The position numbers and the translations under genes are program-made. 64,000 nucleotides of DNA from an uncultured Pelagibacteraceae bacterium (GTDB lineage: Bacteria; Pseudomonadota; Alphaproteobacteria; Pelagibacterales; Pelagibacteraceae), in contig CACMIX010000004.1 in NCBI GenBank assembly GCA_902613855.1, positions 1-64,000 on the forward strand. Direction: 5' to 3'. Of this stretch, positions 11,732 to 24,068 are shown piece after piece. The notes under the pieces are model-generated. The model was given only the letters and a program-made list of their open reading frames with translations. It did not search any database and was not told the origin of the DNA. The stretch's first letter is position 1, and every line of letters begins with the position of its first letter.

Positions 11732-11992
11732 ATGGCAAACACAAAATCAGCAATTAAGAGAATACGAAGAATTTCGAAGCAAACAGTAGTTAATAAGGCT
11801 AGAAAAAGTAGATTTCGTAACGCTTTAAAGAAAATGAACCTTTTAATCGAGAAAAAAAAGAAAGATGAGGCTTTGAAATTCTTGCCGAAGCTAAACTCAG
11901 AGTTGATGAAGATTGCTAAGACTGGAATTATTAAAAAACAAAACGCATCTAGAAATGTTTCTAGAATAACCAAGAGGATTTCTGCAATCTAA
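11732..11992 (+). CDS. rpsT: 30S ribosomal protein S20
   Basis: An 86-residue, lysine- and arginine-rich protein that binds 16S rRNA in the small subunit. The N terminus MANTKSAIKRIRRI and the C-terminal KTGIIKKQNASRNVSRITKRI are typical S20. It stands alone between mutM and dnaA; rpsT just before dnaA is a frequent alphaproteobacterial order. No terminator with a GC-rich stem is clear after it. Confidence 0.95.
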   Translation: MANTKSAIKRIRRISKQTVVNKARKSRFRNALKKMNLLIEKKKKDEALKFLPKLNSELMKIAKTGIIKKQNASRNVSRITKRISAI

Positions 11993-12309
11993 GCGTTAAA
12001 AAAGTTTTATTTTATTAAACAACCTTCAGTAAGCACACTATCTATTTAATTTTAATTTGGTTTAACTATATTTAGACTTAGTAAATATTTACATTATATT
12101 AATTCAATCTATGTTTGATTCAATCCTAGTTTGATTCAATCCTAGTTTGATTCAATTTATAATTTTAATTTCTAAATTTAAAAAAAAAATTCAACTTTCA
12201 TATTGTGACATCTAAATCCACAATCCTAGATTTTATTTTTTTTTTAAATTTTTTATTAACTTGTTGCAAATTAATTTAAATCAGTTCTAAGTAGGTTTCT
12301 TCCAAATTT
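11993..12309. other. 317-base non-coding region before dnaA
   Basis: The longest gene-free stretch in the window. It is strongly AT-rich and holds three and a half 16-base direct repeats (12102-12160), a run of nine to ten A at 12181-12189, a DnaA-box-like AAATCCACA at 12214-12222 (two mismatches to TTATCCACA), and a possible dnaA promoter TTGCAA (12264-12269) with TAAGTA (12288-12293). It could be the control region of dnaA or part of an origin. No cluster of good DnaA boxes is visible, so an origin call would be speculative. Confidence 0.4.
12102..12160. repeat. 16-base tandem direct repeats upstream of dnaA
   Basis: Units ATTCAATCTATGTTTG (12102-12117), ATTCAATCCTAGTTTG (12118-12133), the same again (12134-12149), then a partial ATTCAATTTAT (12150-12160). 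Units two and three are identical. Each junction makes TTTGATTCAATC, which contains GATTC, a GANTC site, at 12117, 12133 and 12149, spaced exactly 16 bases. A role in dnaA control or replication start is inferred from location only. Confidence 0.85.
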
Positions 12310-23950: not shown

Positions 23951-23975
23951 TTTAACTAAAAAAAGGGAGCTAAAG

Positions 23976-24068
23976 ATGCCTAAGAAAAGAAAAAAAGCGG
24001 CAAAGAAAACTAAGAAAAAAGCTAAGAAAAAAGCTAAGAAAAAAGCAAAAAAAAGAAGAAGAAAATAG
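23976..24068 (+). CDS. Tiny lysine-rich histone-H1-like protein
   Basis: A 30-residue frame starting MPKKRKKAAKK, followed by three KKKA repeats and ending KKRRRK. Nearly every residue is Lys, Arg or Ala, which suggests nucleic-acid binding like H1-tail or AlgP-type repeats. Support for expression: a good -35/-10, a clear GGGAG Shine-Dalgarno 7 bases before the ATG and a strong terminator 20 bases after the stop. A 12-base unit (AAGAAAAAAGCT-like) is tandemly repeated in the gene. It faces the convergent carD, whose N-terminal tail has the same style of sequence. I know no named function. Confidence 0.7.
   Translation: MPKKRKKAAKKTKKKAKKKAKKKAKKRRRK

Follow-up and report, generated by a model that had tools for sequence, protein, structure and literature searches.

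The 317-bp gap between rpsT and dnaA in a SAR11 (Pelagibacteraceae) genome holds a conserved, dnaA-specific cis-regulatory array of 16-bp tandem units. On balance we think it probable that this array is a conserved operator in the dnaA control region, to which a predicted factor reading ATTCAAT(C) would bind. SAR11 bacteria rank among the ocean's most abundant cells, and a conserved operator that is specific to dnaA and coincides with methylation sites would offer a concrete handle on the control of their replication, apparently without CtrA. In the open-access literature searched, as far as the available text of these sources goes, we found no description of the array and no account of the timing of SAR11 chromosome replication (see PMC3973325, PMC2877005, PMC9516812, PMC3667746, PMC7987155, PMC2704228, PMC9426551, and PMC1914354).

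A phased array ahead of dnaA

The window (the whole stretch of 64,000 nucleotides analysed here) belongs to contig C4 of an assembly that spans 1.21 Mb in 21 contigs and is 97% complete. The nearest DnaA relatives in named genomes were Pelagibacteraceae, at most 93% identical among the matches listed (at least 80 loci). The 86-aa ORF preceding the gap is presumably rpsT, named from its sequence, as were the window genes that we take to be coaBC, ubiB, ubiE, mutM, and dnaN. Features of the gap and its flanks are collected in Table 1.

Table 1 Features of the rpsT-dnaA region, in window coordinates; identities are mean pairwise values from 91 gaps.
Feature	Position	Strand	Remarks
rpsT (presumed; ribosomal protein S20)	11732..11992	+	86-aa ORF, 5' of the gap
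Near-palindrome, clade form TTACTA-N10-TAGTAA	12063..12085	.	5' of the array; in the window its left arm is imperfect
Array unit 1, ATTCAATCTATGTTTG	12102..12117	+	Identity 0.842
Array unit 2, ATTCAATCCTAGTTTG	12118..12133	+	GANTC site 12117-12121; alignment identity 0.556
Array unit 3, copy of unit 2	12134..12149	+	GANTC site 12133-12137; identity 0.688
Site A, partial unit ATTCAAT and conserved tail TTATAATTTTAA	12150..12169	+	GANTC site 12149-12153
Site B, CACAATCCTAGATTTTATTTTTTTTTT	12219..12245	+	CAATCCTAG common to site B and array units; identity 0.932
Candidate core dnaA promoter, TTGTTG ... TCTAAG	12261..12291	+	Identity 0.928 over 12253-12291
dnaA, 472 aa	12310..13728	+	Pfam Bac_DnaA, Bac_DnaA_C, DnaA_N; TIGR00362 478 bits, above cut-off

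The initial annotation had described three and a half tandem 16-base units before dnaA, with GATTC recurring at exact 16-base spacing at three junctions, and both features proved real. TRF placed the repeat at 12102-12156 with period 16, 3.4 copies, and consensus ATTCAATCCTAGTTTG, and its score of 94 was the highest of 103 rows for the window. The units run in the order ATTCAATCTATGTTTG, ATTCAATCCTAGTTTG twice in identical form, then ATTCAAT. GATTC starts at 12117, 12133, and 12149, which is 161-193 bp 5' of the dnaA ATG. These are the only GANTC pairs spaced by 16 bp among the 97 GANTC of the window, and nowhere else in the window do three GANTC fall inside 60 bp. Among 20,000 dinucleotide shuffles of the gap, at least three GATTC arose in 0.035% and any 16-bp pair in 0.01%, while a phased triple never did; the longest periodic run (28 nt) was matched by 0/3,000 shuffles at any period from 8 to 30. 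A separate set of A/G-rich tandem repeats (units such as AAAGCTAAGAAA) occupies window positions 23958-24065 and is perhaps lysine-rich coding sequence.

Conservation among relatives

An alignment of the gap among strains had been proposed as a check. The gap set came from 139 loci, which yielded 130 rpsT-dnaA gaps after removal of three without a DnaA motif match and six without the rpsT end. Forty further gaps (from 37/40 newly fetched loci, plus three missed ones) brought the total to 170, of which 150 were distinct: 92 carried arrays, 56 were others, and two (L027 and L028) belonged to neither class. Conserved blocks were read from the alignment of 88 distinct gaps holding at least two GATTCAA, and pairwise identity was computed from 1,500 random pairs among 91 gaps unselected for the array. 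Classes by DnaA identity rest on values transcribed by hand.

Five conserved blocks emerged from the 88-gap alignment: the stretch following rpsT, the near-palindrome, the array, site B (CAATCNTAGATTTTATTTTTTTTT), and TTGTTGCAA...GTTCTAAC. We take the last as a candidate core dnaA promoter, whose sequence would supply -35 and -10 elements. A sigma-70 consensus scan of the gap gave five matches (3.2 +/- 1.9 in shuffles), none of them at this conserved candidate, and the gap held no intrinsic terminator.

Across the 91 gaps, mean identity was 0.963 for the last core of the array (GATTCAAT, 12149-12156) and 0.809 for the tail of site A (12157-12169). The corresponding values were 0.656 for fourfold-degenerate positions of dnaA and 0.528 for adjacent spacer; the cores stand so far above both controls that purifying selection is indicated. 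Site B and the promoter block were likewise highly conserved (Table 1). The array combines a repeated core, purifying selection, and fixed spacing, as an operator array should, though its two middle units are weakly conserved, an effect that stems partly from alignment around an insertion.

Other parts of the gap showed patterns of their own. Identity was 0.897 over 12064-12092, at the near-palindrome, and 0.697 in the rpsT-proximal stretch. The near-palindrome, in the form TTACYA-N9..11-TRGTAA, was present in 86 of the 150 distinct gaps, some outside the array clade, and was about as conserved as the promoter block. A GTTGATTCAAC palindrome directly after rpsT occurred 20 times, in gaps lacking the array (e.g., L231 and L233), and in other lineages the rpsT-proximal end seemingly forms a longer-looped hairpin.

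Two exact ATTCAA 16 bp apart were present in 15/16 distinct gaps at DnaA identities of at least 89% and in 75/76 at 84-88%, so that the array was conserved across the clade in 90/92 gaps; the count fell to 2/45 at 79-83%. Below 79%, the pair was found in 5/13 gaps, always at site B, 72-85 bp 5' of the ATG. Counted by TTCAAT, site B was doubled in six genomes (L018, L021, L024, L026, L027, and L028), 71-85 bp before the dnaA ATG and with no upstream array. Because these six are related, the doublings may represent one or few events, and species counts should not be taken as independent events. The 57 gaps that fall outside the main clade contained 12 TTCAAT pairs lying 8-60 bp apart, and 8 of these were spaced by exactly 16 bp, namely the six site-B doublings and two from L232, the sole array-bearing genome there. 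Site B was also present three times in L009, spaced 42 and 43 bp, and twice in L006, 38 bp apart.

The 92 arrays located 5' of site B comprised 52 with one exact pair and 40 with two or more. The 56 gaps without such an array included 31 with a single related site, TTCAATtatAAATTT, and 25 without that pattern. Three ATTCAA pairs spaced by 16 bp were found only in the window gap among the 150 distinct gaps, and since units 2 and 3 are identical, the newest copy is recent. The four-unit array of the window, unique in the set, arose by recent duplication, and slippage therefore occurs at the array.

Could the array be a neutral, functionless tandem duplication? The identity of units 2 and 3 fits such an origin, as does an insertion of ~26-27 bp within the array of many relatives (gap lengths of 285-286 versus 311-314). 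Against this stand conservation well over that of fourfold-degenerate sites, retention across nearly the whole clade, and recurrence of the 16-bp spacing at the other site in distant relatives; with these in hand, we find a neutral origin scarcely credible.

Genome-wide searches matched the double-unit pattern without mismatch only in its three copies at dnaA. There were 29 further matches, two with two mismatches and the rest with three, compared with 18 for the reversed pattern. Site B gave one exact match, two with two mismatches, and 27 with three (reversed pattern, 18). The uniqueness of the unit and of site B argues for a dnaA-specific element rather than a scattered regulon motif, and the array indeed looks dnaA-specific, although degenerate sites may exist elsewhere.

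A model for operator function

Position, phasing, conservation, shared motif, lineage distribution, and absence from the putative origin locus are observed properties of the array. To these the operator model would add protein binding, cooperativity, and a direction of regulation, all of which we infer from sequence. A sequence-specific DNA-binding factor would recognise ATTCAAT(C) and bind neighbouring sites cooperatively at 16 bp, or about one and a half helical turns. Site B, ~90 bp 5' of the dnaA start codon, probably serves the same factor, and together the array and site B would set dnaA transcription. Occupancy may plausibly also depend on how GATTC, which the unit junctions form in this clade, is methylated once a replication fork has passed. 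Cooperative binding of a factor is suggested chiefly by the multiplication of one motif at two places, each time at a spacing of 16 bp. Sites A and B differ in detail (TTCAATTATAAATTTTATTT versus CAATCNTAGATTTTATTTT), so that their recognition by one factor is presumed. Against the operator model count the poor conservation of the middle units, the lack of even the single-site pattern in 25 of the 56 array-less gaps, the relatedness of the six genomes with a doubled site B, and the slippage seen in the window. The array could be used as a short DNA bait for the regulator, and its methylation should be readable from existing long-read data.

Among known DNA-binding proteins, IHF and Fis were set aside as candidates, their consensus sequences showing no good match by eye. 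CtrA, for which footprinting had been suggested in the initial annotation, does not appear to be available either. Two OmpR-type (Trans_reg_C) proteins were found in this 97%-complete assembly, compared with four in each of three relatives, and for neither was CtrA a passing or leading NCBIfam match. Both matched other response regulators best; the CtrA model scored 20.9 (cut-off 350) in one and fell outside the best 25 of 87 families in the other. A published survey likewise has no ctrA ortholog for Pelagibacter, as far as its available text goes (PMC2877005), and CtrA footprinting would probably not inform here.

The array could also act as RNA, as part of either an extended dnaA leader or a transcript that continues from rpsT into dnaA. 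It folds better than most of its shuffles (z -2.68, 3/200 as good), as does 12170-12309 (z -2.26, 3/200), but the repeat contains TTGATTCAA palindromes that can account for such folding, and neither 12058-12095 (z -0.74) nor 11993-12060 (z 1.92) folded clearly better than shuffles. Moreover, the well-conserved block just 5' of the ATG resembles a promoter, and transcripts starting there would not include the array. At the gathering threshold no Rfam family fell in the gap, three tRNAs being the only matches across the window, and a term search of the main text of a Pelagibacter structured-RNA survey returned no dnaA, rpsT, or S20 (PMC2704228). We therefore regard an RNA element as very unlikely.

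Possible methylation at the unit junctions

GATTC at the unit junctions is a site for CcrM (GANTC), and the initial annotation had proposed cell-cycle methylation as a role for the repeats. CcrM in SAR11 and GANTC methylation in Pelagibacter have both been reported (see PMC3973325 and PMC9516812), with GANTC described as enriched between genes in Pelagibacter (PMC9516812). The genome encodes a CcrM homologue with N6_N4_Mtase and RAMA domains, which adjoins an ORF reading as rnhB. Methylases of its Pfam family were found in 8/8 genomes and GcrA in 10/10, all at Pfam cut-offs, but the best NCBIfam models, CcrM (584 of 830 bits) and GcrA (114 of 280), stayed below their curated cut-offs. The same genome (G000) has a second N6/N4 DNA methylase (contig C2:181782-182456), which a search of seven other genomes did not recover.

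Caulobacter crescentus offers a close parallel: it too is an alphaproteobacterium with CcrM and GcrA homologues and GANTC 5' of dnaA, and its dnaA is reported to respond to the GANTC state (PMC3973325). In Pelagibacter, GANTC is also methylated (PMC9516812). The array differs from the Caulobacter promoter in holding three 16-bp-phased GANTC within a longer conserved motif, far 5' of the candidate promoter; the present genome differs in that no CtrA was found and in that any methylation dependence of dnaA is putative.

By analogy with Caulobacter, the methylation site itself might be what is read, with GcrA and sigma-70 RNA polymerase switching dnaA as replication proceeds. GANTC is depleted in the single-contig relative G012 (591 kb; 0.67 of Markov expectation, with GATTC at 209 versus 409 expected), yet GATTC is kept in 92/92 last and 87/92 penultimate array units. 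Seven other palindromic 5-mers in G012 were at 0.83-1.14 of expectation. In the window, GANTC was at 0.77 of expectation overall, with 12 between genes where 7.0 were expected; the array contributes three of these 12. In f2, the order's other family, ATTGCGATTCA stood 5' of dnaA in 16/16 genomes fetched (L268-L270 and L279-L291), a GANTC beside a TTGC that could be a -35 element. A DnaA match was present in 18/24 genomes of f2, of which these 16 were fetched; the two left out were G042, which was partial and lay at a contig start, and G060, where the match was split.

Other features fit poorly with the site itself being read. Just 51/92 gaps have GATTC in the unit that opens the exact 16-bp chain, while ATTCAATCTA is kept; the array search required ATTCAA but not the G, and this first unit is also the penultimate one in 52/92. 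GANTC is absent altogether from 22/150 gaps, including 21 of the 53 without a 16-bp pair, and some doubled copies of site B lack the G (L018 and L026). The GATTC sites lie ~110-145 bp 5' of the candidate promoter, unlike the arrangement reported for Caulobacter ctrA P1, where GcrA covers the -35 region (PMC3667746). Between genes, GANTC in G012 is less depleted (100 versus 114 expected, 0.88) than within them (632 versus 986, 0.64) but is not above expectation. The shortfall of GcrA and CcrM against the NCBIfam cut-offs points the same way, and few likely GcrA targets are predicted in Ca. P. ubique in the available text of PMC7987155. Given these data, a switch that reads methylation alone seems to us rather unlikely. 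Methylation probably touches the array, but the conservation of the array extends beyond GANTC and is not accounted for by methylation alone; the initial proposal of cell-cycle methylation is compatible with the data.

A combined scheme for replication control in SAR11, apparently without CtrA, is conceivable: a ATTCAATC-binding factor and CcrM would compete at the same junctions, passage of the fork would reset dnaA expression a single time in each cycle, and the response would be tuned by how many units are present (four here, two or three in relatives). We hold this scheme to be a speculative and rather improbable elaboration of the operator model.

The counts of individual GANTC forms also varied. 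In G012, GAATC and GATTC were about two-fold rarer than expected, and GACTC and GAGTC somewhat exceeded expectation; the window was likewise poor in GAATC (18 versus 39.9 expected) and GATTC (30 versus 42.3), and GAGTC was not commoner there.

A putative replication origin elsewhere

Plasmid iterons and initiator arrays are short, direct, strictly phased repeats beside an initiator gene, and the array resembles them in these respects. It differs in lying off the putative chromosomal origin, in having units unlike DnaA boxes, and in being built of a 9-bp core with a variable 7-bp spacer, a spacing that recurs at a second operator-like site. Binding of DnaA itself, either in dnaA autoregulation or at an initiator/iteron array acting as origin, would account for tandem phased repeats 5' of dnaA, and 37/89 clade gaps do contain, outside the array, a DnaA box with one mismatch (ATATCCACA in 33 cases; none in the other 52). 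The units are nonetheless unlike the DnaA box TTATNCACA, and the window gap has no TTATCCACA-like 9-mer at 0-1 mismatches. Regulation of dnaA is the best supported of the three roles first proposed for the repeats.

Gene context points to an origin at another locus. Published work places the origin of Caulobacter in the hemE|RP001 context and predicts the same for Rickettsia (PMC1914354). Here hemE and a divergent RP001/COG1806-like gene lie on contig C3, followed by maf, aroE, coaE, and dnaQ, with rho, trmE, gidA, gidB, parA, and parB on the other side (hemE and parB were identified by family search and the other names read from sequence). The genome thus contains the gene pair of a Cori-type origin, with DnaA-box-like 9-mers, and the array differs from this locus in lying on another contig and in sharing no unit with the 290 bp examined there. 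In 6/6 genomes, neither ATTCAAT nor CAATCNTA nor GANTC occurred in the 290 bp next to hemE, but each had one or two DnaA-box-like 9-mers at one mismatch.

The distance from dnaA to hemE was 60-62 kb in three single-contig relatives (G012, G408, and G106). In G012, the finer raw cumulative skew curve, covering 291 kb, had a low, broad plateau at 1.227-1.311 Mb that contains hemE (1.261 Mb) and excludes dnaA (1.198 Mb). Most of the skew in the sampled chromosome reflects the coding strand, and noise in a fourfold-site correction prevented placement of an origin; because it tracks gene orientation, skew alone is weak and coarse evidence. An origin at dnaA was rejected on gene context, motif content, and this coarse skew. 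The array itself thus seems not to be the origin of replication, the suggestion of initiator iterons fails accordingly, and direct binding of DnaA at the array, in either form, is in our view quite improbable. The initial annotation had named a distant skew minimum and a freely varying repeat number as signs against its proposals; the minimum is indeed tens of kb away, but repeat number is not freely variable.

The putative chromosomal origin of the window's genome, between hemE and RP001 at 15204-15475 of L226 (contig C3), has no GANTC in the 290 bp examined and contains a one-mismatch DnaA-box-like 9-mer and, by eye, repeated TTATTAAC.
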